From positions 1 through 64,000 of the forward strand of contig CAJQUW010001866.1 of assembly GCA_907163375.1 (NCBI GenBank): DNA of 64,000 nt. The letters run 5' to 3'. A program made the translations under genes and the position numbers. This document shows positions 3,745-63,700 of the stretch, piece by piece (within the stretch, counting starts at the first letter, position 1; each line of letters begins with the position of its first letter). The notes beneath the pieces were generated by a model, which saw only the letters and a program-made list of their open reading frames with translations, had not been told where the DNA came from and made no database searches. Origin of the DNA: Prostheceraeus crozeri (lineage: Eukaryota; Platyhelminthes; Polycladida; Euryleptidae).

Positions 3745-6700
3745 CTGCATAAGATGAATGGGATTGTTATTATGACTCACAGCAGCTTTGAAGGCACAAA
3801 ATGATGCAATGACATTAAAGTTTACTGTGAAATGCAGATGGATAAGCCTTGTCCCTACATAAAGCTAGACACGAGGCCATGTTAGTAAATTTAAAACAAG
3901 TAGTAAATAAATAAATCTACTTATATGATTGATATTTTGGTCATTCCTGAACTTATCATAAATAATTGAAAATTGACACTGCCGTTGCAGTAATACATTA
4001 TCTAATTAAGTATGATATTTCGGCTACTTCACATGGAAAAATATCGAATGACGGTAGATGCAATCAGATGTAGCATGCGGGACACTTTTATGAACAAATG
4101 GAATAAAAATCAGCAGAACGAGATTGATCAGTCAAATAAGGTGAGGTCAAAGTCAGCAAGTCACCGGTAGCTGGAGACTCAGTGTAACAAAAATAACGAA
4201 GAAAGTTACCTCAAGTACCTTTCAAGTGCATCCTCACTTGAAAAACAAAGAAAGTCACCCATTGAAAAAAAACAAAGTAAGGAGAATAATTATACTAAGC
4301 AGAAAAATTGGAACAGACCTGAATAGCTGCATAATCTCACCCAATATCAGGAATCATCAGCAGGTCTAGTTCACATCTTTCAATATCGACACAACTCCCT
4401 ATTTAAAGTTGCAGCCATACCCGGTCATATGTGATATTTGCAATTACCAAGTTAGTGAAATTTCGACGGGCATTGATTATATATCACCTTCAACACACTA
4501 CTGACAAATTGCCTACGTTAGTGCGCCTGCAATGATTATTGAATGCTGTTTTTAGCAAACGCAATGTAAACAGAAAAATTAAATACTGAGTTGCATCTTC
4601 ACTTGAAAAACAAAGAAAGTTACCTTTATAAAAACCAAAGCGAGGAGAGTAATTATACTAAGCAGAAAAATTGGAACAGACCTGAATAGCTGCATAATGT
4701 CACCCAATATCAGGAATCATCAGCAGGCCTAGTTCACATCTCTCAACATCGACACAAGTCCCCATTTAAAGTTGCAGCCATACCTGGGTAAATCTGAGAT
4801 ATGCAATTAGTAAACTACTGAAATTTTGACGGTTATTCATTAAATATTGCTTTCAACACACAACTGGCAAGTCGCCTAAGTTAGTGCGCTTGTAATAATA
4901 AATAAATGTTGCATTTTGTTAACACAATGTGAACAGAATAATTAAATATTGAGTTGCACCATCAGCTGAAAAATGGGAAGAGACCTGAATAGCTTTAACC
5001 TCTAAGATTTAACTTTACAACTTCTTCTTTGATTTTCGCCGCAACTTTGCTAGAGATTCCATTAAGATAATGACGATTTTAGAAACCAGTTGTTGTTTAT
5101 TCATGAGTCAGTGCTGCCTCTTTATGAAATCATTTTTATGAATATACCTAAGTATATAAATATTCAATGTTATATTTATGTATAATTATAAGGTTGTCCT
5201 GCGGTGATAATATATTTGTATTGCTCATTTGTATTGGATACCTAAATTACATGAAGTCCCTTATAAATTTCGTTTCATAGCAGGAGCAAAACATTGCTCT
5301 ACAAAGCAGTTATCCATCCTGGCTAATAAAGGACTCTCTGTTATCAGAGATCATTTTAAAAGGTATTGTAGTTCAGTTTATAACAATAGCGGCACAAACT
5401 GTTTTCGACATCAGAATTTCTTAATAAAGTCCAAAGTCTGGATGTTAAAAGCGCACAAGTGTTTGATTTCTCTACGCTTTATACTAACCTGGATCAGCGT
5501 GAAGTTAAAGAACATATTTCTAAATTACTTGACTTGATTTTTGATAATCATAACAGAAAATATTTATGCGTTGGTTATGATTAAAGTTTCATGTCACGGT
5601 CTAGATATAACGGCTATACAACCTTTACGAAAGACAAATTCAAATCAGCAATTAAGTTTATTTTAGAAATTGTTTTATAACGTCTGGTGGTCAACTTTTC
5701 CAACAGACTCGTGGCATTCCATGGGAGGGAATTGTAGTCCTCTCTTAGCTGATCTGTTTTTACTACACTGCGAATTTGTTTATATGCAAAACTTACTGAA
5801 AAATAAGATGGGACTGGCTAAACTGTTATCTAATACTTCTAGATACATCGACGACATTTGTATAATTAATTATAAACATTTCAACCAGATTATAAAGCAT
5901 ATTTACCCCGGTATCTTGGAAGCGAGCAGAAGCGGTAGTAATAACAAAGAGGTTGAATACTTAGATGTTAAATTGAGCATTACTAATGATGGTTTACGAA
6001 CTTCTGTGTATCATAAAGTAGACGATTTTAACTTTGCTGTTACACTCCTAACATTCCCAGAAAATACAATCCCGTACAAAATGGGTAGCCAAGTATTTAA
6101 CGGACAACTTATAAGATATGGTCGAATTTGTTCATCCCTTGATGATTTCGTGAAAAAGCTTCTTCGACATTCAGATTATTAGTTGCTAGAGGCCATAATC
6201 AAGATTCTTTAATCAATAATGCAGAAAGATGTTTCTACAGGCATAAAGAGCTACTTTTGAAATTTGGGCTGTATTCAGCTAGAGAATTTTCTAAGTTCAG
6301 TCTTCTGCTAACCGAATAATCAGATTTTCTTTTTTTTGCCGATTTTGACTTACACCGATTGTGACTAACCCAACTTTTGACTTTGTGGAAGCTGTACAGT
6401 TTTACTGTGCAGGGTCCCGCTCAGGTGGGTTTGAGTGTTCAGGAATTGGGGCCGAAACACGAATCCTACCTGAGTTCCTGCTGATGACTTCCTAGCTGGT
6501 ACAGGGAACGCAAAACCAGTCCTTTTGTGGACTAATTTCAATTTCATTTCATTTATTTTCAGTATGTATTACATTATTCGTTTGCACTAATTTTTTTGTT
6601 GCAGTCTACTCATTTATTTTACAATAGTTTCTTGTGACTATCAATCTTATTTATTCATTCAGATTTTGATTTTTTACCTAATAGTTTTCATTTGTGCTGC

Positions 6701-9700: not shown

Positions 9701-12700
9701 ACAATATAAGCCTACGGTGTCGCATTGAAACCTGGTATGTGATTTCCAAATCGAAATGCAAACACAATAATACACAAAAATGTGTATTACGATTTTTGTG
9801 ACGTCTGTTAAAAGACGCGATATTGTATAATAATCGCCTCAAAAATTCATTAAATATCAGTGCAATTGTATGCATAACGCTCTCTCTTTCTTTCTCTAAA
9901 CTGCCTGAACATAGTTTCACTTGTTGATATCAATGAAAGCAAAAACTTTTTGGCATACTGCACAATGATACGCTAAAATTAATTCTAGTATATGATAAAA
10001 ATGTATGAATAAGTAATACACACTTCCAGGTAATTATAAGACTATCGTGTCTGACGTATTCTTGATAGTTTAGGTCTAGTATTGATAATGAAAAAGGCTA
10101 AGGTTTCAAATATTGCAATTTGCAACGATGAAATATATCTATCTTCATTGTTACTTCCTTGTTGCTCCATTTTCACACAGCCTAACTGCCTAAAAACAGA
10201 TGATAGCGAATCCCGGGATTCTAAATCCCGCAAAAATACGATAATCCCGGTATTGAAAACCTTACAATGCACCCGAGTAACAAAAATGCGTCGAACAGAC
10301 GAAGTAAAATGAAGCTGTTGACATCGCTACATTTCAAATTATCGTCTCTGATGCAAAAAATAGGTGCTTGTCCGATGTGTACAAATTTTTGTATGTGGGT
10401 AGAAAATGTGCTTCAGCATGTCTACCCGAAGTTTGGTGACAAATGATTAATTTTGCAGATTTTAGAAAAATTTGAAAACCTGGTGGGGGGGATAACCCAT
10501 AAGTACCATGTAGAGATCTTAGATGGAGATCAGTTTGTTTGGTGAAGCGGTTCTTGTGATCGATATACGCCGAATTCTGTTCTTCAAGATGAGTTTCATT
10601 GTGTCGCACTTTGTTAGCAGGTGGGTGGGTAGGAGTCATCCTCCGATTCCAGCAGAGTTTTGCACTAATTTCATTTTCTCTATAGAAAATGTATGAAGTT
10701 GGTCTTGTCAACATTTGATTTAAACTTTTTCTATCAATAACGTTGATTCTTTCAACGCAATTCCCTTTGTCTATTAGTGAATGCCTTGCTAACGAGAATG
10801 GTCAATGAGTATCTACATTCCCAGCATACAATTTTCTTGAAACAGGTGGTAGAGTCCTGTGTGAGTAAATAAGTTTCCGCTCATAGCAACAGTAAATTGT
10901 TATGTAATGCGCAGATTGCACGGTGGCGTTTGTGCAACTACGTCTTTTCATCTAAACTCACGTGCAACGTAAATGATCGCGTGGAGCGCTGCCTCAACGA
11001 CTTCATAGTGACAGACAGGAAGCAGACGGAAATGCCATCAATGAGACGATTGGATCTATCATGGTACTTTAGAGACCAAAACATACGTTTCAGTAATCAC
11101 TGATCAAGAAGTGACCATCATGTTTACTTTAAATTGAGCGTCTTCGAGGTTGATGTTCATACAGTTACTCTGTATTTTTCAATGATGCTACCAAAATTTA
11201 TTAAAATGAAATATGTGTTGTCTTAATCCGCTATATATATTTCGTAATTGTAGAACTATCGCGTAATGTTGGCATGCAGTGGGGAAACATATAACGGATT
11301 AAGCTACTATTAAATTATTTTCACATAATTTCAATTGCAGGTCAAGACCTAGTCAAATAGAATCAGAAAGCAGATGTCACAGCGTCGAATCCACAAAGTC
11401 AGATAGATATCAACTCACATAAAACCGGCTACTGAGTAAATCAAAGACTTGCATTATTTACACATTGAGTTTTGCATCAATACAATTCACAATATTGTCG
11501 ATTTATTAGAGGCTGCATTAATTATTTCTCTGAAAAATTCAACATTCAAATATTACTGTGCTAGAAAAAGAATGTACAAAAAATACTTGAATTCAACTAC
11601 AGGAAATAACACCTGAATGTACTTGTATCTTGAAAAACTTCAACTAATAAAAAAGATGTTTCATCTAGTGACCAAATCATCATTATTTCATCATGACACC
11701 AAATATCAGAACATAAAGGAAGCAATTTCTCAGTTCACCGATGACTAAATCATCATTATTTCATCATGACACCAAATATCAGAACATAAAGGAAGCAATT
11801 TCTCAGTTCACCGATAATGCGACGATGCGATATTAATCTCATCATGTTATTGATAGCTTATTTTCATGGAAATACGCAATGTTATCTGAAGGCACCTCGT
11901 ACAGAATGTAAGCTATAATAATATAAGCTTGATGATATTTTCAACTTAGGAACTTAATATCACAGATGAAAAACACACTGACAGTACTCACTAACATTTA
12001 ACACAAAAGCCTCTGCAAAGCATCATTAGGAAATTGTTATGCCTACGATTCGTACCTAATATGTCAAAATTTACTTTCGGTGACCGTCTTCATACACTAA
12101 GCTACAGTTTTCCATTCACAGAAAACTGTTCAAACTCGATTTCATCATTTAAAAAATCTCAGTAGGTGTAAACCTCAGCAAATATAACATTGTCGCTATC
12201 CGGTTTAATCACTGGGTAAGACATGAAATCCAAAAATGCAGCTAGGATTTAGTTTACAGGCCTATTCCTATGCATGTGTTGAAAAATTGATATTACCAAA
12301 GCCCTCAGAGCGCATGAGCATTACTTTTCAGTCCCTGTTCAACTATTCAGTCATTGGTCCGCACTTTACAGGGCCTGGCCAACTTTGCAGAAATTGTGGT
12401 CAACACTTTGCAGTTCGTGAACTTTTATGCTGCAAAGTATATTTGCTTCATGATTTTATTTTCTCTATGTAATATTTTTTATTGCAATTACATTGAATAT
12501 CCTTGACAAGTGCCTAAATCTAGTATTTCAAACATAGGAGCATTGCAATATGGTCAATTGCATTATCGACCTAATGCAGAATCAAAAATATGAAATTGGT
12601 AAACGATGCACTATTAGCACAATTATCAACATAACCAATATTTTGGTTTTCTGTCAGATAGCTGATAATATTCGTTAAAATTGACTCCTTCGATCTGCGT

Positions 12701-15700: not shown

Positions 15701-18700
15701 CATCAAATAATTTCCCTCTCTATATCCCAGAGAATAGCATAGCCATCCTCTAACCATTACAAATAAAAGGTTTTACATAAGGATGAACACTCAAGTAAAA
15801 AAAGTCCTATTTCCCTGCTCCTAGCAAACAGTCAGCATTCCCTCGCTGGATGTCGAGACTAGTTCTCTGCATCAGCCACGCAGCATCCCTCTTGTCTCCT
15901 GTTGTCATTGTGAGACGCCTCCCAACTGATTCCAAGAAGGTCTTGGTCGACTCCCCCATCGCACCACACGTCTCAACAGCCACTGGTTGGACTACAAAGC
16001 GGTCAGCGAGAGTGATGTATTTGGCTAACTTCCTCGCTTCAGCCGCATTCGCAGCAGCTCCAGTGGCAGATGCCGACAAATTCGTGCGAGAGAACGTGTC
16101 GGAACATGTGGCATCCCATACCATGCATCTACCTCTCATGAAAGGAAAGAACGTCAAGTCATCTGGACGCTTGCCATCTCCGCGGTCCAATCCTGGAGGC
16201 TCAAGAATGGGTGAAAGGCCACATTTTGATAAGGCTCGACGCACTGTCTCATTCAGAGCTGCATGGCGTGAAGTTCTACCTGTGCTGTGCCGGCAAGACA
16301 AGGTGTGAATTCCAAGCTTATCGATCATGCCTTCGCACACACAGGTAAATTCTTCGCAAACTCTACTGCCGACACGCATTAAATTCACTCGATTAAAAAG
16401 TCCTTTTCATTTTGAGTGGGAGTAAAAGGATATCTCTTCTATGTAAACAGCCGGGAGGAAAAATCAGCTTTTCAGTCCCACGGGATCACAAAGTTAACTT
16501 TTCCTTCCGCAATTAACTTTTCATGTGTAAACTCCTGTGTAAAAAAATCATAGAAGTCTATAAACAAGTCATGATTAGACCATGGACTATGATTAGACCG
16601 ATTAGACAGATACTACCAAGATATCGATGCAGTCCCTTGATTTGCTCATTCATAGATTTCGCGATGCAATTTTTTATTGTGAACAATGGACTTCTATTAA
16701 AGCACAAAATGAAAAGCTACATTCTTTCGAGAGGAAATAGACGTTTCCTACCTTAGCCATCTATCCATCCAGGTCCATCCTTCGCTACGCTCAGGCTGTA
16801 CACCATAGCTGCGGGAGGAAAAGTTGATATTTCCTCTCTCAAGAAAATCACTGTTTCAGTACTCTGAAACAGCAGCTTTCGATTGTTCCTGGTCAAAACT
16901 GTCCTGAAATTCGGTTTTGATAGAACGTTCCCAGGAAAAGCCTCAAACGTTTTAGTTGCGGAGATATGCCTAAACAAACCTACTTTCAAACTGTCAGAGG
17001 TCATTGATACTCTGACTAACATTTTAACAGAAACATAGGTTTTAGATATTGATGAGAACCATTATGTTATTTAAAGTTTATTTTGGTGCTTTTAAGGCCA
17101 GATTGATCGAAGCCGAATTGTATGACACCCTTTCATGGAGCCGGCAGCAAACATCTGTCACTAATGCCTTATGATATTTTTATGCTGTCTGGTTGTCAAT
17201 GAAGAAAAAATGATTTAGATTCCGGATACAAATCCATCCGGCGCTGTTTTACTTCATCAAGTTCTAATGAAAACCATGACGTTAAAAATGCAACACTGAC
17301 AATTTGTAATTTGAGTTGGTTTTTTGTTTATCCTACAGTTCACGAGAAGCAATCCTTCGACTTCCTTATCCTTCTCTCTGTAAGCAACTTCAGTCAGGAG
17401 ATCTATCAGCTGCTCAAGTGCTGGACGCCTATCAATGGAGGGCTCTCCGTGCAGACCGCGATTTCAACTGCATCAACGAGGTGATAATTGAGGCTTCAGA
17501 GCTTGCACTCTCATCGCCCAGAGGTCGGCTTCATGGCATTCCGATTTCCATCAAGGAAGGAATAGCCATAGAAGGCCTTGACGCAACGGCAGGGAACACC
17601 AGCAGCGCCCTGCGGCCACGAGATCGCTCAGCGGCAATCATTCGTGCATTGTTATCAGAAGGTGCGCTTCCATTCGTTCAAACCAACATGGCACAAGGTG
17701 GGCGAGGTATAGACTGCAATAACGCTCTGTTCGGTGAAACTCTCAATCCACATGATCCACGACGTTCTCCAGGCGGATCCTCAGGAGGTGAGGCAGCTTT
17801 GATAGCTGCTGGAGGTTCTATCCTTGGTTTAGGTTCCGATATTGGTGGAAGTATCCGAATTCCGGCATGCCTTTGTGGAATCTTTGGCTTCAAACCAACA
17901 GCTGACCGAGTCAGTCACCGTGACCTTGCATCAAGTGCGCTGTCAAGATTGCGTGTTGTTCAAGTTAGTTATGGGCCACTGGCTAGAGACCTTGAAGCTG
18001 TTGTAGATATAGTGAGAGTTCTTTTCAGTGATGCAGTATTCAAACTAGATCCCATGAGACCATCTCAACATTTTTCTGAACATTCTTTCGCCCCTCCGAA
18101 CTTCAAACCACTAACAATAGGATACTACACTCGTTTGGATGACCCTGATTTGTTGCCCGTGACTCCAGCCGTGGTTCGAGCTGTGGAAACAGCGGTTTCA
18201 GCTCTAACTACCCGTGGACATCGAGTGGTGCCTTGGTCCCCTCCAAGAGCTGCTGATTTGACGCTGCTGACTATTCAGGTAAAATGATCGAAATATAAGT
18301 AGCTTTTATCATTGATTACTTATTTTCTACTTTAGCTAGAGCGATTAGTTATGTATTTACTTTTAGTGATTTGATAAATAGGACATGGTATCATAATAAT
18401 GTGAGAAGCGAGGCAGTACGCGAAGCCTACTTTAACTTAAGTGGCAAGGGTGGACAACTAGCGTCCGCATCTGCAAAGTTGAGAACGTGAATCAATTTTC
18501 TCAAGTGCATCGTGTATGAATGTGAATGCGGACGCAGATTGATGTTTTCAGAGGATGTGAATGTGTATATGGATTGATGTTCTCAGAGGACGTAAATGCA
18601 GACGCGGATTGATGTTCTGAGGATGTGACTGCGGACGCGAATTGATGTTCTCAGAGGATGTGAATGCGGATATGGATTGATGTTTTCAGAGGATGTAAAT

Positions 18701-21700
18701 GCGGACGTGGATTGATATTCTCAGAGGCTGCTAATTATATTTTTCGAATTCTGCCTAAAATGTCGGATCGAAATTCAGGAAAACTTAATCAATAGTCTTG
18801 TTAAAATGTCGTTCTAACATTAATATGAAGCAAATTCTAGTATCATTTCTTCTCAAGCTCTTAATGCAACTATGGTGTGGACTGATTGTATTAGTCTGTT
18901 GTATTAACATACCCAAATTAAGTTTCTTTGAGACTTCGGGTTCTAGTTGAGTCGGCTTCATGAAAGAATGGTTTTCCTTCATTCTCCAAGGAAAAAACAT
19001 CATCCTACTATAGAAGGATGCTCCGAGAAAGAAATAAGTTGCCACCGATAAGCTTTTTTCTTGACATCATCCACTCACTCACTTCACTTTTCGCTTTGTG
19101 TCATTCTTTTATCAGCGGAGGTTTGATGATTTTATGTGTTTTCTTTTAATTCCGATCTTGGACAAGGTATTGATTGAACTTCATCACACTAAGATCTTCT
19201 TCCATGCAGCTCCACCACGTCCTCTTTGGTCTTCCGATTGGGCGTCCTTTCCAGCTTCATCGATTTAGCAACCTCGATTAGATGTTGACTTGATATTTCT
19301 AATTTAGCGAATGCGGATGCAGATAACAGAAATAGATTCGTATCCAACTTTGCATGTAAGTATGCATTGCATTATCATATAAGCAAAAGAAAATTCAACG
19401 ATTCGTCGTCACTTAGATACCGCAAAACTATTAGAGGATGGAGGGAAGGATGAGATGTTTTGTGTTAACTACTATAGGATGAAGAAATTGTCACGAATAA
19501 AGACTGCTCTTTGCATGTCTCGGTCTTCAACATTTTGATTTTCAGGCCTACGCACTAGATGGTGGCAGAGCGTTTATCCGCTCTACTCGCCGCGAGCTGC
19601 TGACTCCTGATCTACTTTCTCGAAGACGGATTCTAGGTCGAGGATATGCACTGCGAACGGTGTTTGGTCATTTAGTCAGTTGGCTACAAAGTCCTATCGC
19701 TGGAAGACAAATCTTGGCTACACGAGGAGCTCGTTCTGTCGATCACATGCTGCAATGGTGTGGTAAAGCAGACGCATACCGACAGGTAAATCTTTATAAC
19801 ACTATCTTTAACATGCTTTCATTTTACAGTCATGACAAAGATCCTAAGATTCGACCAATACGATGATTGCGTACAATGTCATCAAGAGAATCGATATCAG
19901 TGAATCAACTTCTTCAATAATCATGTGACACATTGAGTTCTCAGGTGTACGAGTGCAGTAAAACCTCGCTAATCTGGAAATATTCTCCGGAGTCTAAGAG
20001 TCCAGATTAACGAGGTGAACGAGATTAACGAGAGTCCAGATTAACTGAACTGAAATTTTCTGATTCTCCTGATCTCTATATAAAATAATTTTCATTTATC
20101 TCTTAACATTTTTCTCACTTCTCGCAGCTCACAGGTATCTTACGCACTTGCTCTCTTGCTCCTCGTTCATTGTCTCTTCTCCTCCAGGCATGAGGGTCGG
20201 GTATGAATGAAGCTTTGACGTCATTGCTCCACCTCAGAGACCTTGGACGATGCTAGCATAATCAGATTTTAGCTAAAGCGCTGTGATACTTTTAATTCGG
20301 AAGCACTTCCTACCGACTTCCACTACTACTCTCTGGGCTCGTCCTCTGGATCAAAAGAACGCTAGGTTGAGCACTAACCACTGTGCCACGGAAACCATTT
20401 AGATATTGGCATGGTAAAATTGACATAACTTCAACCAAAATCACGAATTTTTAATAATTTATTCAACGCTCTGTATTCAGACAATCAAAATTTCCGTCGA
20501 ATCGACAGCGACTGAGCAATCCAAGCTCCGCACGAGTATTTGGATTTCTGCAGGACCTGTGATTGCGGTGGCAGGATAGCTCAGTTAACGTTGTGCCAGG
20601 AGAGGCGGTTTCATTTTAAAAATTTCCCACTGTATTTCTCGACGGATTCTGGTGTATTTTTGTATGCAGATTTCGAAAATCAAAGTTTAAAAATCATACC
20701 AAAAGCCCCTTTCGAGAAAATGACGAAAATTCAAAATGGCGGAAAGAGAAACCGAAACTGCATTCTGGGGTTAGAATAGAAATGTTGCCAAGTATTTCGT
20801 CAACTGTTTCCTATCTAATCAGGTACACTTTTCAATCATCACCGTTAGAACATGATGCCGCTAGAACCCATCATATACTTAAAGCAATCATTAACGAAAA
20901 GTAACTTTTATTTGTAAAAAGCTCGAATATTCACGTGGCGACTGTTGTGAGCCCTTACCGCAGCCAACAGATGATCGGCATAATAGTCATTTTCGAAGTT
21001 TTTGATCTTATAGTTCGACCGAAATGAGTCAAAGTCTGCATGGAGTGATTCACTGGTTTGCTCGCTGAACTTCCCCATGCCTTCAGACGTCATCTTGCAA
21101 AACTCTGGCACATGATGAATAATGCAAAGAAGTTTTGGAGAAACACGAATGTTCAATGCATCAAGATCATTGCGAAAATTCACGATATGCTGAGAGAAGT
21201 CTTGGTCCAGAAAATTTCCAAAACAGCTTGTGACGATTCGCTCTAGATTTCTGAATGCAGAAACGATAGGCAATGTCTCAAGCGTTGCGATTGCTCGCAA
21301 TTTGTCGACGCTCTTTAAAAGTTGACGAGCACTATTACCGGTAAATGTACCGCCATGATATTGATCATTGTGCACTCGCGACGAAGTTAACCATTGTGTT
21401 GCAATTCTATGTGAAGTTTCCTCCAGAACATTGAACAACTTAGAGACTGATCCTATAAGGGGATGCAACTCTGGAGGCGGTATTGTTTTCAAAACAAGTT
21501 CACTACCATCTCCATGGATAATGGAGGGATGTATTGCATTACCATAGTTTTTTGCCTTTGATTTCGCCTCCGATGAATCATGGTAGCTCCAAAATAATCC
21601 TGATAGACTGTCCCATGTGCGGCTAACTCCGCTGTTTATGAGATCGGTCTTGTGCACGTCACACCATGGACATGGATGTGAGCTGCCACTACTCATCAGA

Positions 21701-24700
21701 CCAAGTGACAGGTTACAGATCTTCATATTGGCTGAAATTATGAATTTTGAAGTTAATGCGTCTAGCCGACAGCGTGCCACAGATATTTCAGGTTCGGATA
21801 ATTTTCAAGTGTGTCGGGTGCAATGGCGATGATGAAGATATGTTTGACGCCATAGCTTCTATTTGCATGTGATGTAGTTGCAAATGATGCCACTGTTTCA
21901 GCTCGAATAATTTGCAGACTTATTTTCATAAATCCTTTACCTCCGTCGATTACAATTTTGATGGTATGACCATAATCTATCTTATTCCTCAATAGCACAT
22001 CATCAACAAATTCTTGCACACTTTTACAGTGAACAACTGGTCGTTTCATCCTTTCACCCCGAGAATCAACAAAATCTATGTCGACAGCTTGGAAATATTT
22101 GTCAAAAATATGATCATTTTGCCGTAGATTTTCGCGTACGTGTGGTTCTATTGAAATCCTTTTCGTAGATTCCCGAATGGTCTTTGACAGGCTTGACGTT
22201 TGTCGACAACTGAGATTCAGGTGTCGCTGTATATCAGAAAAAGTTTCTGTGGTGAGCTGATATCTAGGCGAGTTCAGGCTGATTCAATTGAACCATGTTT
22301 CACTGTCTGAAGATCAAGACTCCCGGATTTTGAATGAAGTCTAGAACTAATTGTAGATGCGGCAAATTTTTGAGGATCATCTGGAGATTGAATTGAAATA
22401 AGATCGGCAATATTTGAAAATCTCTTGTTTTTTGAACAATTATGAGACTTTCCTCTGCCTATCTGAGACAGTCAACGTGCGCAAACTTTCATCGTAGAAG
22501 GAGATTCATCTTCATGGTCTCTACTTGGAGAAGACATCGGTCTGCCTGGTGATGACTTACGACATGGTAACTTAGACTCATATGATTTTTTCTTGCCATT
22601 TGACAAATAGTGCATTCACAAGCTGTATTTTGACGAGTGCAAGTTTGGAATGGAAAGTGATATCGCGATCATATAAAGGCAAGTTTTCAAATTCACCAAC
22701 CGAAACTTTCTTTCGACACGACAAACATATAACACACGGGAATGTTCCATCAACAGTGTTGTAATCTGGAAAAATATGCGATTTGATAAGTTCTTTCATG
22801 TTAATGGAGATGTTACGAAGGTCATTTTTACCAAAGCAGATAACACAAATGACTTTTAGCGATTCTGAATGAGTTCTTGCTGTTTTTGGCATTGTCAAAG
22901 TCAAGTCAATCCGATAAACAATCGCAGACACAAATGGACCGAGATCAGTGGCACTTGAATAAAGAAATGTTGTTTACACGATCAACAATCATGCGCGCAT
23001 GCGCATGTGATCGTCATTATGACAAGCTTTGCATGTGTGTGTGTGTGATGAAGGACAATCACCGTATTAGACATGATTGAATTGAGACAAGCTGCACATG
23101 TATGAGGATAAGTTGTTTACGATAACTATGCGCGTGTACGCGTGTGATCGTCATTGATGTGCTGTGATCGTAGTGCATGTGTGTGTGCAATGTAATCAGC
23201 TATTATTCTCTCTGCAAATCAATCTGATGCAGACCACTGATTCATGCATTTTGCTTTTCACACAAATAGGACGACTTAGAACATGACCTCTCCAATGCCT
23301 CTTATGATCCTGCCAAAATCTCCAAGACTTGTTATTAATACATTATGTACACCAACGAAGTCCCCGAATGCAGTTTCGGTTTCTCTGTCCACCATTTTGA
23401 ATTTTCGTCATTTTCTCGAAAAGGGCTAATCGTATGATTTTTTAACAATTATTTTTGAAAAGAGCGGGTCAAATTACTTAGGAAACCGTTGCCGAAATAG
23501 TTGGTAATTTTTTTAATCGACTCCCAGAATGCGGTTTCGGTTTCTCTTTCCGCCATTTTGAATTTTCGTCATTTTCTCGAAAAGGGCTAATCGTATGATT
23601 TTCTAACAATTATTTTTGAAAAGAGCGGGTCAAATTACATCGGAAACCGTTGCAGAAATATAGTGGGTAATTTTTTTAATCGACTCCCAAATGCAGTTTC
23701 GGTTTCTCTGTCCGTCATTTTCTCGAAAAGGGCTTTTGGTATGATTTTTAAACTTTGATTTTCGAAATCTACATACAAAAATACATCAGAATCCGTCGAG
23801 AAACACAGTGGGACATTTTTAAAATAAAACCGCCTCTCCTGGCACACCGTGAAAGGGCCGCACCTCGGTGCGGGAGTGAAGAGGTTTCATCGCTCGAGTC
23901 TCCGCCTCGAGAGGTACCACGGCTCTCTAACCTGGTGAGAGTTACAATCCTTCCCACCCTTGGGTTGGGCAAGGATGAGCAAAAAAGCTCCGAACCAGCA
24001 TCAAATTCTAATTATGGGTTCAGTAGAGCATATCAGTCTAAGAGAATCTAAGAGGTCCATGTACATGATAAAATGCGACGGCGAGTTGTCACACATGGTC
24101 ATCTGACATTAAGTCATAGGGAGCAAGCTATAGTCTAGAATTTTCGAATGTTTGGTAAAGGTGGTAAATTTAGCGAAATCGATGTTAGAATCACTAATCA
24201 GATAATACAAAGAACCGCCTTAAATGATCAAAATTCAGAATGCAAACGTTTGTTAGGATTAATATGAAGTGGAACTCAATGAACTTGGTGAGATTCATGT
24301 TTGCATAGATAAAGGGAAGAGCGTTTTGCCTCCAAGAAAGGTCATTAGTCACTAATTCACATTCAAATGTGTAATCATGTACATTTGAACAACAAATGTC
24401 TGGATTCTATTAAGCAGTTATGTTATGTGACCTCTTACAAAATAATGATGATGAGCTAGCGAGCTAACAAAACCAAAACTTCGTAAATTTCAATAAGTTT
24501 GTTTGGTAGAGATAAATGTCTTTAGACAGCGGACAACATTTAATAATTTTTATGGAAAGAAAACTGAAGTAAAATATTGAAGTCGGCATCTGAAGATCGC
24601 CACGCTATAAAACCTGACTTGAAACCAACTAGATGATAGGATTCAATGGCGAAGGTACATAAAAAGAACGAATACAATGAATACGTGAACTTTTCTCTTA

Positions 24701-27700
24701 TTGACTCTCAAACAGTAATCATCAGTTCAAAACGTGAGCATAGATAAACATCCTGAAGCATTAATTAACAATTATTTGAATTTACTGCTTTGATTTGTTA
24801 TCATCTTATTTCTACCAAAACATTTTGTCCGCAGTATGTTCTTTTGTGTCTACATAGAATTTAAATGTGTTAAAATCATCTCTGTTAACTGAGCTGTTAT
24901 CATCAATGTCGATGTCTCTTTTCGCTTGCCTGACGATAAACACCGTTTGTATTTGAAAGATCTCACAATAAGAATCGAAGTAAACTGTTTTGACAGATCT
25001 CCTCAATGGAAAACAAAAATTTTCAGTGACTTCGTCTTTTGTGTGTCAACCAACTGTCTGAAACTCATGAGGATTTGCTGATCCGATAGTAATGACACCT
25101 CCCATCTTACACAATTTCGTTAGCATCGGTAGAAATTAAATGTAGTAAATGTTGATGAGTTCGAAGATTGCGACCATAAACAGCCAAAACAGTGGTCTTT
25201 TTGACAGTAATAATGTAGCATCCAAGACCTATCCGCTATTTTATTTTAAATCATTGGAATATGTTTCAGTAGACTAACTATCATCATCAGTGACAACAAT
25301 CAATAGACAATGACACAATATACATAGGATTTGATGAAATGAAAACTCAATGCAGGAAAAGCGGCTGCGATTGATTATGATTATTCATGAGACAGTGCGA
25401 ACGAAGAAATGACTTCATGTAGTAAGTCAATGATATGATATACAATGATATAAAATACAATGATTATAGCAAAGTACGTCAGCGACACCTAATTCCAGTT
25501 GATGTAATTGATACAAGATTGCCAACACGAGATCAATGGTAAATAAAATGAACGAATTCGAAGCTTTTATACAAACATATAAACCAGACGTTGTGTGCTT
25601 ATCTGAAACTTGGTTGAACAACGAAATTACTGATGACGAGATCGCACTAAATGGTTATAATACATTTAGAAAAAACAGGATTATTCGAAATGGTGGTGGG
25701 ATCATTACCTACATAGTCTCAGATACACCAGCCACTCAAATTGAAAAGTTCGATGATAATGACATTGAGAGTTTGTGGACTTTATTTCGCCCGAAACGTC
25801 CGTCCCGTGTACATTCTTCTATAATAATTGTAAATGTCTGTCATCCACCTGATGGGAACGCTCGGAAGCTTATAGATCATCTGATTTTCGGTTTGGATTC
25901 CTTAAAACAAAAGCATGAGTCCATTGGCATCATCATAACTGGGGATTTTAATCATGCTAATGTCAAACTTTTGACATCCTCGTACGCATTAAAACAATTG
26001 GTTGATACTCCAACGCGCAATGATGCTATTTTGGATTTGTTTCTCACGAATATGCCAGATATGTATTCAAGAGTTGAAGTGCTACCACCCATCGCAACGT
26101 CAGATCACAATGTCATTCTTGCAATACCTATTTTCAAACAATCTTCATTGGTGCCAAAATATAGAATGAAACGATGTCAAACTCGTAGTAACAAAATCAA
26201 GTTTGTAAATGCTCGTAGTCAAATAAATTGGAATCTTGTTTACCTGGTTGATAGCTGTGAAACGAAGTATGGAATCATTTTTTTCTATTTTGTCATATTT
26301 GATGGATGATTATCTTCCATGGGTCAGTACAAAAATTCCGGCTGGATCAAAACCATGGGTTACGGAATACTTTGTACAGACAGTAGAACTACGAAATAAA
26401 CATTGGTGTGACGGCAATATGGTGCTTTACTCCCACTATAAGAAAAAGACGGAAGAAATTCGAAAAACATTGAAAGCCAACTATGTGAGACAACATTTGA
26501 ACAAGGTTGAAGCCTCAAAAGAATGGTGGACTGGATTGAAATCAATTATATGTCAGAACAGTAAATATGCTAACAACAAAGTTAATGGTTTTACTCAGAA
26601 CAATTTCGATAGTGATGTCCCAACTTTTATCAAATCCATCAACAATTTTTTTGTATCTGTTGCCAAAGACATCCAACCATTCATCGAGAATATTTTTGAC
26701 AGCAGATATGCTTATGTTCCTGATTACTTCTTACCAACTGTTTTAGATGTTGAAAACATACTAAGCAGCATCAAGGTAACGAAGTCTTTAGGTCCTGATG
26801 GGATCCCTAACTGGATATGGAAGGATTGCTGCAAGATACTGTCTGGTCCCATCGCGTCCGTTGCATGTTCATCCATAAGAGAAGGAGTATGGCCTGCGAT
26901 GTGGAAGAGCTCTGATGCTACAATCTTGAGCAAAACTGCAAGACCAAAATATTTGGAATCTGACTTCAGACCTATCAGCCCTACATGTGTTGTAAGCAAA
27001 GCTGTAGCCGAATCAATTATGATCAAATCGATTCTTTATTATGTCGGTGAGAAAATAGATCAAAATCAATATGGCGGCGTCAAAGGAGGTTCCACAACAA
27101 ATGCAATGCTCACTTTGATGGATGACCTGCTTAGAAATGCCGATGATGGTCTAATCAGCAGACTATTGTTGATAGACTTCTCAAAAGCTTTCGATAGAAT
27201 TGACCACAACATTCTGATCAGCAAACTTCTCAATTTAGAAGTCCCAGTGTGGTTATGTAAATGGATATCTGGTTTTCTTACTGCACGAACACAGGGTAAA
27301 ATACCAAGATCAATATTCTGAATGGAGGACAGTATCTGCTGGCATTCCGCAAGGTACAAAACTCGGCCCTCTGGCTTTCATTTTAATGATCAATGATCTA
27401 TCTGCAAATGTAAAATACGTTGATGACTGTACAATTTATGAATCTTTGGAAAATTCTCAATGTTCCGTTTTACAATCACGAATGGATGATATAGTGCAAT
27501 GGACGAAGAACAACAATATGAAACTAAATTCCAAGAAAACATATGAAATGAGAGTTAGCTTCAAAAAGAAACAGAGATCATGGGATTCAATTACCATCAA
27601 CGATGAAATAGTTACTCCTGTTCAGAAAGCAAAAATTCTCGGCTTCATAATCAACCAAAATTTGTCCTGGACTGATCACATTGAAAAAATGGTAAAGAAA

Positions 27701-30700
27701 GCACAAATGAGAATGCATTTTATAAGTGAAATGATGCGATGTGGACTTCAAAATGAGGATATTATACGGTATTTCTGTGCTTGTGTCCGAAGCATCCTCG
27801 AATATGGTGCTCTAGTGTGACACGTCGGAATCACCAAAGCTCAATCAATTGCTATTGAATCTGTTCAAAGACGACTGATAAGAATGATGGAACACATCCC
27901 ATATGATTATCATGATTATGACCGTCTTCTGCAAAAATATTCACTGGAAACACTTAGTTCACGACGTATGAACATCTGTCGGAATTATTTTAACAATTTG
28001 CCAAAAGCTTTGAGTGAAAGAATTTCACATCGTCCACAAAAAACAGAAATATTGAGACGTAAAACAATTATCATCTTTTGTAACACCAACAGGTATAAAA
28101 ACTCCTTCTTGCCATCTGCAGTACAGAACTTCTCGTAATTGATTTTTAATGTGTATACATGTATATCTTCTCCTTTTCACTTTTTGTAAAATGATCAGCT
28201 TCTGCTGTCTAGTAGGCTATTGAATAAACATATTATCATTATTATATATGTACAATGATTCAGCAATTTTTGTGTGTGTAGTGCGTTTCATTTCATTCAA
28301 TTCATTTAATCAAATCCTGTATCATTGTTTATTGATCTTTGTCACTGATGATGGTAGCTAGTCTACTGAAACATGTTCGCGAATAAATCTGTCAAAAGCC
28401 TACGGATTCTAACTGTCAACATTGGAATATGATAATTGTTATACTCCTATTTATACATGCCATTTTGATATCATCGCGCCTGTTTGTCAATGTTAGAAAA
28501 TAATCTGCAAAATAAATTTTTTCAGGAATTCTTGGAAGCATGGGAATCTTCAGGTTTGGATGCACTCATCTGTCCAGTCCTTCCCTTCGGTGCTGCACTC
28601 CCATGTGGAGAGACTCACGCTCTGCGAATGGCTCAGATCTACGCCCAGCTCTACAATTTCTTGGACTGCCCAGCCGGAAGCGTTCCAGTCACTCGCATCA
28701 ACGCTGTGGATTTACACAGACTCCGGTCTGATTACCCAGACCATGATCCCCTTCTTCGGCGCCTCATTCGATCTCAGGCCGGAAGTGAAGGATTACCGGT
28801 CAGTGTCCAAGTTGTGTCTGCGCCATGGCATGACGAACTATGTCTACATGCCATGAAAGAACTTCGAGACGGTTTGAGAGCCGCATAACGGAGAAGCCTC
28901 TGTCAGTCTCAAAAATTTACGACTTTTATACTTGATTTTTAAGCTCAATTAGCATTCCATACTCAATTTAACGATTGATGAGGAAGAAGGTTGATAGATT
29001 CGAAAAATCGCAATACAGAAGCAATAACTTTATATTCTGATCGGTAGCAGAAGTTCTACTTTCTTATTTTGTTTGGTTGCGATGATAATCGACATTGAAA
29101 AAAAAAATTTCAAAGATTTGAAGCTATACCAGTTTTACTGATAACCTTGTCTAACTATGACAAGCGAACCATTTTTTATGCGAAACACATTTTAAACAAT
29201 TTCTTGCGCGACTGAATATTACTCATATAAATCAAATAAACCTATCGCATGAGCGCTGAATGAGGCCTACAGTGTAAAAACTTTAATGTGGATAATACTA
29301 AATCTAACGATTTGCTAGATAAGCAGTACAATTCTGCTTTTGGCTTATAGAGAATAAAAAATCTGCTGTGAACCTGCATATGCTCAATGATAGTACTTCG
29401 TTGTAATATGAGATCAATATTTAGTGAAGAAAATCCGTAGCTTACGTCGTAAAAGTCATCTTGTAAACAAGCACCACTCCATATCCGATGCTAAGCTTAG
29501 GTTCTACTTAGGACTTATGAGTCATACCATAATTACGAAACATACAGCTTCTCAGCATGAAGTTTTGATATGCTCAAATATTATCAAAAAACAAACTTGA
29601 TTCTAAAGATTTTCGCTCTGCTTCTGAGACGCTAAAATCTGAGACATTTCGAAACCTGCAGTATCTTGCAAAACGTGAATACGATAATCCCTGCTACATA
29701 TTTACCAAGAAAGAAGATCTTTAACCACGTGTACATGTATGTGTGCGATTCTTAGGCAAAATATTAGAAATCATAATCTTATTTACGAAGTACTAGAAGT
29801 TTCATTATTGCGCGGATTTTTTTACATGATTAACGATTTACATACAAATCTAACGAGTTAAGACAAATTCGTCTATGTAGCCGAGGCTGCTTGGTTGATA
29901 ACTCGATAAGCTAATATTTTACGGATTTACATACATGCAATAAAAGCGCACTGATAGTAATCAGAGTGCTATCTAAATTCTCAGTTAAAAAGACATTTGT
30001 GGTCGGTAGAGCAATGAAAGTCGTTAATTTCTGAGACATTTTTTCTTAATCTTTACTCTAATTGCGATAGAAAACGCCAATTATTTTTGATGTCACGACA
30101 ATCATCATTTTTCTATCACTGTATCAGCAACTGGCTAGTGCTGCTACTTCATGTTTTCTTCAACTTAAACTTGCCTCTGCGATCAATAGATGTCGCTTCC
30201 ATTCCATTCTCTTTTACACCAACGGTGTCTTTTCATAGTCTGATTCTTCCTTAAATGAAATATTTGTTCAGAAAATAAAGAAATAAAGACTATTTGTTTC
30301 ATCGAAAATTCGTTTTTGGAATAATGTTTTTGAAAAATGACTAATGTAGCAAAAGCTAAAGAGAATACAAATCTGACCTATGACAATACGGGGGAGGATT
30401 GGATGCTGACTCAGTCCCATTGGAAGTGATTTTCCAGGAGGAGGTTCTCATTTGTAAAATGAAAATGAAAAAGATGAGAGCATGTAAAATAACAAGCATT
30501 TGAATATTTCAGTGTATCACACGAATTCCGAGGGTCTACTTCGTAGCATTTTGGAAGAGGAGTTCGGAACATAAATCGGCTCCAAAATGTCACTAAGTCC
30601 ATCGTATCAATTTTCCATAGAGAACCATAATTTAATTATCTCTAAAGGCAACCTTGTCATTTATCACTAAGGTTCACAGCCTCTGAGCATCTTGCTGTGA

Positions 30701-45700: not shown

Positions 45701-48700
45701 ATATTGATACTTTTGCTTGTACATGGCTGGTAGGATGTTTGAACAGACTCACGTCATGTTTTTTCAGGTGATTATGCAGTCCCTTGGTGGAGTTTACGTT
45801 CACTGCTAAGCTCTGGTTGCAGGCCTCACATCAGGCTACATTATTGCTTGACAGTTAGTAGTGCCACCAAATTGGCGTGTTGCTTCCTGCTTCTACCCAA
45901 CATTGATTGTTTCAACTGTCAACAACCTGATATTGTTTTGAGATGGCAAGATTTCACGTGTTTCACGTATAGCGACTGTGTAAAAAATACAATACTGAAT
46001 GATGGGAGACCGCCGTTAAAGCTGCTCTTAACTTTATCCGCTACTTCAGAGATTTATGCACAATGCTTTCAGAAATTTGACCACTTGTTTAACAATTCAG
46101 TTTTAGGATACATCATTTTAATGTGTACTCATTGAAACAGTAGTAAACCAGCACATGTGTCGTCTCCTGCCACCCAACGCCGTTAAATCTAACCAGGGCA
46201 ACATTTTCCTAATATGATGTCATCACTGCACATGTTTAGAGTTGTTTAGGGTATATCCATCTCATCTTGTTTTTCGCAAGAATAATTAATGCATGTACTT
46301 GTTTACATGCAGGCTTGGAAAAGGCGGAACCTATATCAATATTTGACAAACATTATTTGAAAGAATGCTCAAAGATCTGAAAAGATGTACGTCAAAATGG
46401 AACGCTGCCACAGCATCATCAAGACGCTATCCACACAGACTGCATACCAATATAGGGTGAAATACACAAATATGAATGTACTCATGAGCAGGTGATAATA
46501 TACGGAGCTTACAAAATCACAAAATTCAACTGCCCAACTCAAGTTGAGTCGCAATTCTAGACATCCAGTAAAGCGTCTCACATACTGTATTGTGCATCAC
46601 ACAAGAATGTGTGTGACTACTAGTGTCAAATTTCAGTGCATCGTAATTATGGTTTTGTTATTCCAAAATTTATTGAGGGCAGTTTATGTCAATCTTGCAT
46701 GTGAGAAACAAAAATAGTAGGAGCTAAGTCTTCACGTAATTCTAACACACAGTGTGCCATTTCGGTGACATTTCTTATTCTTTAATCGAGAAGACCTTAT
46801 TGAAACCAACAAACAAAATCGAAGTATTTCTTCCTATAAGAAACACATTTGTGACTGATAAAGCCGGTCACCAGTAAAATTGTGACAATCATGCTCTCCT
46901 ACAAATGCCCTGAGAAAGTTACATACATGTGCATTGCATAGTATAACAAAAAGCAGAATCGTTTCATAAAACGGACTGTTTAGCACATTGTGCAATAGAA
47001 ATAAACTAGTAGGAAAACAACCAGTCAGGTTATTGAATTGCAATAACAATCAATCAGTTATATCGAGCAATATATCATGATATCAAATAGATAAAATAAT
47101 GGTCACTGTCTCGTCTCAATACAAATTAGCGTGATATACGATGACTTACAGATAGACAAATGACACCATTAATGACAAAAAACCTAACAAAGACTCAAAA
47201 TGGAAAACGTTCAAGGCTCCTTGGAAATTTCAAATCGATCTTCAAGAGTAAATTTGAAATTATCAGTTACAATTTGAATTATAACTAGAGAAAAAGAACA
47301 GCATGGGCTATCATAACTTAGATATGAAAAGTAATTTAACTTTTACAGAAATCGTCCTCTACAAAAATTGACTTCTACTTTCTCAGATCGTAGCGTATAA
47401 CATGAGTTATTCAAAAATACTGATGCTTCAGGTTCAGCTCTTTGGCTTCCACAACGTAGTCTTTAGCAGGATTCCTAATCCTACCTCTTAAGCTTTTTTA
47501 CATCTTTATTCCGATTTTCAAAAATTTCAAAATTATTTTCAGCTTTATTTTCTGTTCCGTTGCTTTTTTCAAATGAACATTATATTATGTAGCTTTGGGC
47601 AATATACAGTGACCGCGGAGTGGTCTCCGTGGCACATGGCATAGAAGTTAAGTGCTTGGTCTAGCGATCTTCTGGTCCAAAGGTCAAGCCCTGAAAGTGA
47701 CATAGAAAGTCGGTAGGAAGGGCATCTGGACTAAGAGATCACAACGCTCTAGATTAACCGTCTGACTATGTCAGCACCGTCCAAGCCCCCGGTTTGTGGA
47801 AGTAGTGACTTTAAGCCATCATTTTTTCAAATTGCTCAGTAGCTTGATTATAATGCTACTCAGATTCCTATCACTCTAGGAAATTATTGTGCTGATTGCT
47901 CGTCTTAAATTATCACTGGATATGGATGTAGATTAGATAGTACGCAAAGTCGTGAGATAGTTCCTAACATTGGATGAAAGTAATATTCAGAACTGTTCTT
48001 GATTTGTGGCGGATCATATAAATCAATAACCCAGGGATACTTTTTGTCAGTCTGGAACCTATACCGTTGTGAAGGCAGATCTTTTGACAGTTGCTGAAAA
48101 TCTGGCACGTAAATAGATACCTGGGGCCATATTAATAAAGATAGCGCTAGCATAGCACTACCCTTCTGCTACCCTAGCAACGACATTAGCATTAATAGAT
48201 TACTACATCCGTTGTTTAACTATATCCATTCGAAAATTATCATTAGTTTTACATTCACCTCTCATGGACTAGTTCAGTCGACAGTGCGCATGCACAGCAC
48301 ATTCAGTACGACATCGATGTGGCCACCAAAATTGAATGTTCACTTATTTGGCCAGCACAATTGAATGCATAAGAGAAAAGCGGTTACTTTTTTGTCATAT
48401 GAAGATTTCCTAGAATTCAAGAAAAAAACTGGATGAAATTTGCTTGTTGAAAATTACGGAAACATAATGTGGCTGGCATTTAAAGTGGGATCAACTGGCT
48501 TCCATTCAAATGTTTAAAAAGTGTGAAGCGCCACAAGAAAAATAAAGCGCTCTGCAGAATTCGACGTCTTGTACATTGGAGGAAGACGCTTAAGGAACAT
48601 TGTCACAAAACCGGTTGGTGAATATACTGAAACACCAACGACTTTTACACAGAAATACAATGACTTGTGTTCGTTGTTTGGTAAAATCAGGAATACTATG

Positions 48701-60716: not shown

Positions 60717-63700
60717 TCAGACCCTTTGCTCAGCCCCAAGAACACAGGCCGCATTGCCTCTCTGAATATCAAGGCTCACACGCTGCATTAGCCATACAGA
60801 TTCTCTCGCATCGTGGGTTACATCTGTAAGGAGACTCCCAGGGACATCTATGATTAATATAAGATATCTAAGGGACGTTCAACTCCCATTCCATGTACTG
60901 GACTGGAGGCCAGTGATTTTGGTAATGACGGTAATGTGTATTTGGATAAAACCATGGAAAAAGGTTGCAAGCAATTCATTTCATTATTGTAAAATACATC
61001 AGAATTCAGCTGAATGCATTGGTGTACATACTAATTAATGCGCTCGGCCCAGCCTTGAAGAGAAATTGTCGAAAGAATCTGTGCAGTGTACATGTACATT
61101 CTACATATACACGCATCGATGGTCGATTTTGGAGATATTGTGACTTTCTATATTCATTGATTTTCCTATTGCCTTATCTAAAACGTCTTCCTGTATATAC
61201 TGGTGGACTTTATTAGAGAATTCAAGAGCAATGAGGCGATGTAACATGTGTGATTTATTTCGGCCTTGAATTGCTCAACTTTCATTAAACGAAAATTGAT
61301 GGCTATTTTTATCACAGTGATGCGCGAATGATTTCATCTTCACCGACGAAATTTTTACGGATTTCGTTATCAACTTAAATTCAGGATCAATGCTGTTCCT
61401 GAATTGCACAATAGCCTATGGTAGGACCTTAAAATCGTGGAAAGTCATCGATCACCACAGCTTGGTTTGCTTTTTATTCAATATGATCTTCGCAATGAAC
61501 CATCACAATTGTGATGCAAGGATTGACATTACAATCACATCCTATTTGTTCGTCGGAGTTTGAATATAATTTGAAGGCGTCACAGGTGATGCTCTATAAT
61601 CACGAGATGTCTAATAAGGGATAAAAATATATTGACATCGGCAACCACTCATCATGAGGAAGCACACTTGGAAAGACAGCACTTTTCCACCAAAATCTTG
61701 ATAAAGGATCTTCCGAAGGAATGGATATTCAAACGATTCTTGCTTAACTTTTAGCATTTTCATTAGTTATAACAATCAAATTATCACTTTTTGACGTTTC
61801 AATGTGTTTTGTGATAGTTTCTGATTACATGATCGGTAGATTTTCTTAAGGTTTTAATCATATCTTTTACTTGTATAACAATGAATCAGGCATGGAAATA
61901 TTGCTGCAATGATTGTAGTAGCAAGTAAAATCATCACTGATCAGTCATCATTTAGTCAATGACTCCTTAGAGTAAAGAAAATAGATAATTAAAAATATTC
62001 CAGAAAGATGTCACAATTCTCCAAAAAAACACACTGGTGAATCGATTTTCGCAAGCAAATCTTTTTGCAATAAGCCTGCTAATTGCACAAAAAAGAAACA
62101 TGTATAAAATGTTCAGAATCCACACCAAAAGCCATTGATGCTACGTACCGCAGGTGAACAATTTTAATCACTGACAGTTGCCGTTGCAGCTGTTATTGAC
62201 AGTTGCTTATTCTTGTGGGAGTTTTATAATTCTTTAGTCTCTCCTTGACTGGGTCCAGAATCTTCTTTCAACAGATTCCCTATATGAATGCGCGTATTAG
62301 AGTATTGGATAATTGTTTACAACTTGTTTCACGGTTTTATCCAGATGTGCAAAAACTACCGTCATTAATCAAATCTACCAAAGTCACTGGCCTCCAGTCC
62401 AGCACATGCTTTGGGAGTTGAACGTCCCTTAGATATCTTATATTAATCATAGATGTCCCTGGGAGACTCCCGATCTTCTGGAGAAAATGCAGCGTCAATG
62501 AACCCATCGAGCCTGAGGTTTCCACCGCGAAAATGAACCGATCAGCTAGAAAGTAATACTTATGTGTCTTACGTCTCTCTGCTGATGAGGCTACGGAACC
62601 GGCTTGGGTGGCCGATGCATTCAGTGCTGTTGAGAAGGTATCTCTGCATATTGCGTCCCACACTAAACACTTGCCTCTAGCGAATGGAAAAGTGACACCA
62701 TCTGGCCGCTTCCCATCGCCACGGTCCAGACCAGCTGGTTCCATTACTGGCGATAATCCGCACTTTGCCAGTGCTCGTCGAACAGTTTCATTCAGTGCCG
62801 AGTGTCTGGCAAAGTGTCCTACACTATATCGACAAGATAAGGTGTGCAGTCCATATTTGTCGACTACTTCTCCACATCTGCACGGAAATTCTCGGCAAAC
62901 TGCAGCACCTACATGAAGTGAAACTGCGGTTCGAAGAGTGTCGTTGTCTAACATTGTACCAATGCTTGACACTGGAATCACGTGTAGCCAAGACCCACTA
63001 TACGTAGATTGTGCACCTATGAGCCTGGCTCGTTCAAGAGTATTTGCATTTGAAAGCCATTCTTGCTGTTGAAGGCAACACAGAAGTTCATCCCAGTCAC
63101 GTTAACAGCCATTCATGTCATCATGTGGATTGCTATCATCTCCATGAAGTTCTGTCCATCGTGAAGCTGCCACTTCAAACTCATTGACACAAAGGGATCC
63201 AGAAAGATTCACAAGGATTTTTGTGGCCAATGTTTTCGACGAAGTAATTGACGACAGATAAGCAGTGAGAGCAACGTCGGATGGTTGTCGGATGCCAATA
63301 CCACCAAAACGAATTGGCTGCTTTGCTTGTGCCCATGGTCGATCATTAAAGTTGACATTGATGATCTCTTCCAGACCGGATTTTATGGTTGAGTCCAGAC
63401 GATTAAGGGCTTCTTCACGTTCAAAGCAAGGTGCTGAACAAAGGAGATAACTTAATCTGGGAATGAGTGAGATCCGACTAAGTAGGTAAAATGCAGCATG
63501 AGAATTGACAGACTCAAGTCTTTCGCAGGCTAAAGTGATCGAGGCTTCCTTTTCCTGGAGTGCATCATTAATTGCAAGATTTGACAGTGGAGAGCCTAGT
63601 AATGTCAGTTCACCCTCTGATGGGCTCTTCAGAGTTGGAAGTAAATCTTGAAAACGTACTATCACTTGCTGAAAGTCATTATCATCAAGACCAACATTTA

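Follow-up and report, generated by a model that had tools for sequence, protein, structure and literature searches.

A decayed DNA transposon with the remains of a probable RAG1-like transposase gene in the polyclad Prostheceraeus crozeri

The 64-kb stretch of Prostheceraeus crozeri DNA analysed here (contig CAJQUW010001866.1, positions 1 to 64,000; termed the window) contains an element bounded by long terminal inverted repeats (TIRs), which extends from 20592 to 23846 and has the sequence TGTGCCAGG...CCTGGCACA. Between the repeats lie, on the minus strand, the pieces of a zinc-rich gene whose C-terminal part aligns with mouse RAG1. An earlier note, made from the sequence alone, had placed a complete transposon with an unclassified transposase-like gene at 20596–23856; the inverted-repeat element stands, but its exact ends have moved, and completeness holds for the ends and not for the gene, which is a frameshifted pseudogene with a stop. 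The element is made up of the following features.

20592..20819, plus strand: left TIR, starting TGTGCCAGGAGAGGCGG; 141 nucleotides at 94% complementarity, then 80%
20911..21765, minus strand: gene piece E, RAG1-like core, with Asn at the position of RAG1 D708 (21729–21727) and the CPWC zinc pair (21672–21661)
Within piece E, minus strand: LH (21468–21463), HH (21117–21112) and the E of SES (21051–21049)
21768..22283, minus strand: gene piece D, with IDGGKGF, whose D (21947–21945) is the likely first catalytic Asp, by motif only
22277..22582, minus strand: gene piece C, with a GRP segment (22546–22538), a broken zinc knuckle and an in-frame TGA (22474–22472)
22582..22644, minus strand: gene piece B, with the third Cys pair, CTIC (22614–22603), in another frame
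22644..22892, minus strand: gene piece A, the N-terminus, with CVIC (22847–22836) and CLSC (22727–22716); zf-AD match below cut-off (E 0.075)
23361..23660, no strand assigned: two further tandem subterminal units (23361–23499 and 23522–23660), about 161 bp apart
23683..23846, minus strand: right TIR, including the third subterminal unit, ending CCTGGCACA

The gene is divided into five pieces in three reading frames, giving four frame changes, and is interrupted by one in-frame TGA. Where adjoining pieces overlap they share no more than 7 bases, and elsewhere 2 bases separate them; the frame changes are therefore frameshifts, and introns were rejected as their source. With four frame changes and one stop, this copy is inactivated and the protein cannot be made from it; given the mismatch of approximately 6% between the outer repeat arms, it looks like an old, dead copy. 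All open reading frames (ORFs) of at least 80 amino acids that lie wholly between the TIRs belong to pieces of this gene. The peptides on which the earlier note was built (IDGGKGF, CPWCD and SESLHADF, together with the N-terminal CxxC pairs) are present on the minus strand; its C..C-H..C knuckle is not intact, a stop replacing the second Cys in this copy.

The outer arms of the element, 20585–20725 and 23713–23853, pair over 141 nucleotides with 94% complementarity, and a second pairing, which overlaps the first, joins 20642–20819 to 23473–23650 (178 nucleotides, 80% complementary). The symmetric part runs from TGTGCC at 20592 to GGCACA at 23846. The two 300-bp ends gave a gapped local score of 162.5, as against a mean of 17.0 and a maximum of 31 in 200 shuffles. 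The 16-mer GTGCCAGGAGAGGCGG, taken from the earlier note, occurs twice in the window, once at each end of the element, where 0.07 occurrences are expected by chance in 64 kb at up to three mismatches and none of 100 shuffles contained two. Arm pairing, end score and 16-mer thus bear out the long TIRs that had been proposed; the 16-mer search, suggested for the genome, covered the 64-kb window, in which no second copy of the element was found. The two ends are not identical: a 16-bp stretch of the left TIR is missing from the right one, and the right end is longer, with three tandem subterminal units at a spacing of about 161 bp compared with one on the left.

At the flanks of this single copy, no offset tried gave a clean target duplication; the best 4-bp option at the 20592/23846 ends is ACGT/CCGT (three of four bases), and other offsets were no better. 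A search for an empty site, using the joined flanks, returned nothing beyond a repeat that matches part of the left flank. The left flank contains a dispersed repeat, 20285–20388, which matches 47637–47737 in inverted orientation (72% over 101 bases). The sequence GGATAGCTCAGTT beside the insertion is tRNA- or SINE (short interspersed element)-like by eye; ARAGORN finds no tRNA there, and Rfam and ARAGORN scans of the window gave no matches.

Piece E was compared with mouse RAG1, which was chosen on motif order and whose sequence and residue numbering were taken from a PDB search match; the comparison is of one divergent, decayed sequence with one RAG1. Without constraint, piece E aligned to RAG1 from residue 697 to 972–1008. 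In five of six scoring schemes the Gumbel-fit P was 1.5e-5 to 1.7e-3 against composition shuffles, and in the same five it was 1.4e-5 to 1.9e-3 against shuffles within 20-residue windows. The joined pieces D and E scored 243 with lenient gaps (shuffle maximum 191, n=500) and 76 with strict gaps, a score reached by 1 of 500 shuffles. In a decoy test RAG1 scored 110, and the best of 14 decoy ORFs 60.

The alignment places functional residues in register. Residues D600, D708, E962, C727, C730, H937 and H942 of RAG1 are those which we take to be catalytic or zinc-binding, with numbering from the PDB match. Identical residues of piece E are aligned with C727, C730, H795, H937, H942 and E962, that is, six of the seven residues scored, in four of four schemes, whereas 4 × 1000 = 4,000 shuffles gave at most four of seven. 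All tied optimal alignments of these four schemes keep the six matches, and a fifth scheme gives five or six; the seventh residue, D708, is aligned with Asn. Because of this register, a RAG1-like transposase is the most likely product of the gene, and we assign a probability of about 0.75 to the element being an inactivated DNA transposon of the cut-and-paste type, with a gene for a RAG1-like DDE transposase of the Chapaev–Transib–RAG1 (CMCT) kind. The same kind of enzyme also gave rise to the recombinase of antibody genes. The first proposal for this locus, that of a DNA transposon encoding a DDE-type transposase, is accordingly supported, the RAG1 comparison supplying the link; in its strong sense 'unclassified' no longer applies, as the core groups with RAG1 and, by published motifs, with Chapaev and Transib.

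The alignment also redistributes the catalytic and zinc-binding roles. On its alignment with C727/C730, CPWC is the predicted C(2)C zinc pair, and the Asn aligned with D708 precedes the first Cys of that pair by 19 residues. The earlier note had proposed the D of CPWCD as second acid of a DDE triad; that position falls away, since this D directly follows the zinc pair, which in RAG1 itself follows the catalytic D708. The third position stands if the E of SES in SESLHADF was meant, as that E is aligned with E962. For the first acid, the D of IDGGKGF is likely the natural catalytic Asp, on motif only: IDGGKGF resembles by eye the D600 context of RAG1, CDGMGDV, but shuffled sequences align to RAG1 as well as piece D does. 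An equation of RAG1 D708 with ELHPLIG was dropped, as PDB numbering places D708 in GTGYDEK.

Several observations weigh against a RAG1-like assignment. In this decayed copy Asn stands at the second acidic position and the H(4)H spacing is not preserved: HH pairs with H937 and H942 only across a four-residue gap. H795 joined the residue list after the alignment had been seen (five of six matches without it), and RAG1 is the only known transposase compared. PAM250 misses the similarity (P 0.24 and 0.25; three of seven functional residues), and single-sequence hhalign aligns only 36 columns, which surround D708 and the zinc pair (probability 1.3%, P 0.038). Piece D was no better than shuffles in all six schemes (P 0.06–0.22) and, against RAG1 552–700 alone, was equalled by 222 of 500 shuffles. 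Fold prediction of piece E alone was too poor to be used (mean predicted local distance difference test score, pLDDT, 34.5). The N-terminus did not align significantly with that of RAG1 (its scores at two gap costs were reached by 413 and 90 of 1000 shuffles), and sequence searches of Pfam, NCBIfam and PDB do not recognise the protein. Alternatively, the gene could have encoded a DDE transposase that has a zinc insert but belongs to a different superfamily, the resemblance to RAG1 reflecting remote RNase-H kinship or chance, given that the similarity between one divergent, decayed sequence and one RAG1 is found by a single matrix family (BLOSUM). This is improbable in view of catalytic and zinc residues that fall in register without being imposed (six of seven, as against at most four in 4,000 shuffles).

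The profile searches against known families that the earlier note had suggested thus left the protein unrecognised. Pfam, which includes RAG1 (PF12940) and whose matches were listed at E up to 10, gave zf-AD at the N-terminus (E 0.075, below cut-off); its match of piece D to a viral family (E 0.09) looks spurious, and it gave no DUF1280 match in that range, although HMMER filters drop weak matches. NCBIfam gave one sub-threshold match (E 0.022; cut-off 161 bits), and PDB one match to the 290-amino-acid ORF at E 1.6 and none to the joined protein. A captured or accessory zinc-finger gene, in an element moved by another enzyme, would accord with the weak zf-AD likeness of the N-terminus and with the single visible copy; it is very unlikely against a RAG1-type core in register, in an element whose only ORFs of at least 80 amino acids wholly between the TIRs are among the pieces of this gene.

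The family had been called recurrent, and this found no backing: no relative appeared among viral contigs, genome contigs, phages or plasmids, collections without invertebrate genomes. Three protein scans of the viral contigs found none, and a RAG1 scan and a TIR scan of them gave no match in either; one degenerate motif scan returned three loci, at which tblastn gave only 14- and 10-residue matches (E 1.1 and 2.2). Protein scans of the phage and plasmid collections found none. The single genome-contig hit, a bacterial contig that matches over 31 residues and outside the coding frame, was rejected as chance. A search of prokaryote genomes for the RAG1 family, intended to enrich the RAG1 profile, gave 0 of 340 with controls at 0 of 14 and is uninformative. 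The literature was checked by named family rather than for this sequence, and we do not claim that the family is unpublished.

Within the DDE transposases, the most likely placement is RAG1-like, in the CMCT clade (EnSpm–Mirage–Chapaev–Transib, with RAG1), and the element looks like another member, as yet unplaced, of a kind already known, and not like a new kind. CMCT and RAG1 transposases are described as having C(2)C and H(3–4)H motifs (PMC12730594), and RAG1 and DUF1280, the Chapaev transposases, as falling in one clade (PMC3985635); RAG1 domains and the history of Transib are treated in PMC7204232 and PMC9435367. The C(2)C expected between the second D and the last E is present as CPWC; where H(3–4)H would be expected, this decayed copy has the HH that pairs with H937/H942 across a gap, without the spacing. 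The last E is present, the D708 position is Asn and the first D is assigned by motif only. Ends in the clade are mostly 5′-CA..TG-3′ with a 2–5-bp duplication; those of the element are TGT..ACA with no clean duplication. With RAG1 (PF12940, for example PDB 9jpu) and with Transib and RAG-like transposons, the element shares C(2)C, His and Glu residues that follow one another in the same order and register across RAG1 697–1008, and by eye an upstream GRP segment. It differs from them in low identity, in the absence of a RING recognised by Pfam, in long TIRs with tandem subterminal units and in having Asn for the second Asp, and the 5-bp duplication of Transib is not seen.

Chapaev elements are described as having 3–4-bp target duplications, 'invariable' CAC..GTG ends and C(2)C, LH and H(4)H motifs (PMC4079192), and a zinc region like the RAG1 N-terminus, the Chapa domain (PMC4411706). 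C(2)C and LH are present in the element as CPWC and ELH, as in Chapaev and Chapaev3 (DUF1280, PF06918), and pieces A–C, which contain the three CxxC pairs, the GRP segment and the broken knuckle, are reminiscent of the N-terminal region of RAG1 and may be such a Chapa domain. With Cys positions kept, however, 698 and 314 of 1000 shuffles scored as high against the RAG1 N-terminus; homology there was set aside as lacking support in the shuffle comparison and stays a lead. The element could be a true Chapaev member, or the Aplysia N-RAG-TP, with termini that differ through erosion or through ends set a few bases off and with the same mechanism, to which we give somewhat less than an even chance. 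The C(2)C and LH motifs, the three CxxC pairs, the grouping of DUF1280 with RAG1 and the possible ACGT/CCGT duplication favour it; the ends TGTGCC..GGCACA (one copy, symmetric part), the HH in place of H(4)H, the lack of a DUF1280 match and the non-significant N-terminus speak against it. A clean 3–4-bp duplication is not seen. Because its ends as cut are not CAC..GTG, the element was not filed as Chapaev.

The RAG1-like element was also likened, by description alone, to two other systems. N-RAG-TP of Aplysia (Panchin and Moroz 2008) is a mobile element with a protein like the RAG1 N-terminus, and is described in PMC8355894 and PMC2996935 as RAG1 N-terminal-like only; it may be the same thing. 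PlavakaA, a CMCT element, has 5′-TGT..ACA-3′ termini and C(2)C, but is fungal and makes a 2-bp duplication (PMC12730594).

By homology with RAG1, Transib and Chapaev, an intact element would have moved by cut-and-paste. Zinc modules at the N-terminus, together with the GRP segment, may have bound the long TIRs and tandem subterminal units, which would offer several recognition sites at the right end. The ends would then be cut by an RNase-H core through a D-D-E triad (the D of IDGGKGF, the residue that is now Asn and the E of SES); within this core, the C(2)C pair and His residues further downstream would hold a zinc-binding insert. Insertion of the element would leave a short target duplication.

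A zinc-rich protein outside the curated Pfam and NCBIfam families is hereby tied to the RAG1 and Chapaev transposases, with its catalytic and zinc residues corrected. If true, the N-terminal link would bear on whether the zinc region and core of RAG1 were together from the start (PMC4411706) or, as the alternative has it, were joined from two transposons (PMC8355894). It is unlikely that the element stands for a separate CMCT lineage, with ends TGT..ACA and tandem subterminal units, whose protein combines an N-terminal zinc region and a core that are both of RAG1 type but has no RING; were that so and N-RAG-TP a member, N-RAG-TP would be more than an isolated N-terminal fragment, and there would be no need to derive the RAG1 N-terminus from a separate transposon.

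The element is flanked by two amidase ORFs on the plus strand, 17316–18287 (Pfam Amidase profile 2–281, E 3e-70) and, about 10 kb away, 28484–28885 (profile 357–445, E 1.4e-10). Standing between these two parts, it therefore probably lies in an intron of an amidase gene, together with a LINE (long interspersed element)-like non-LTR (long terminal repeat) retroelement at 25536–27820 on the plus strand, whose endonuclease ORF (Exo_endo_phos, E 1.8e-12) and reverse transcriptase ORF (RVT_1, E 1.6e-9) are not in the same frame. A Tc1/mariner-like transposase, split over two ORFs, is present at 58093–59139 on the minus strand (HTH_Tnp_Tc3_2, E 1.2e-11; DDE_3, E 0.00018, below cut-off). A tandem array of period 322 occupies 35–2765 (7.9 copies, 78% matches), and small arrays lie at 4227–4973, 11669–11815 and 18520–18727. 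Two minus-strand ORFs with no Pfam match, 15807–16388 and 62337–62981, are alike by eye (LHTLSCR, ALNETVRRAL and GLDRGDGKRPD) and probably represent one retroelement family.

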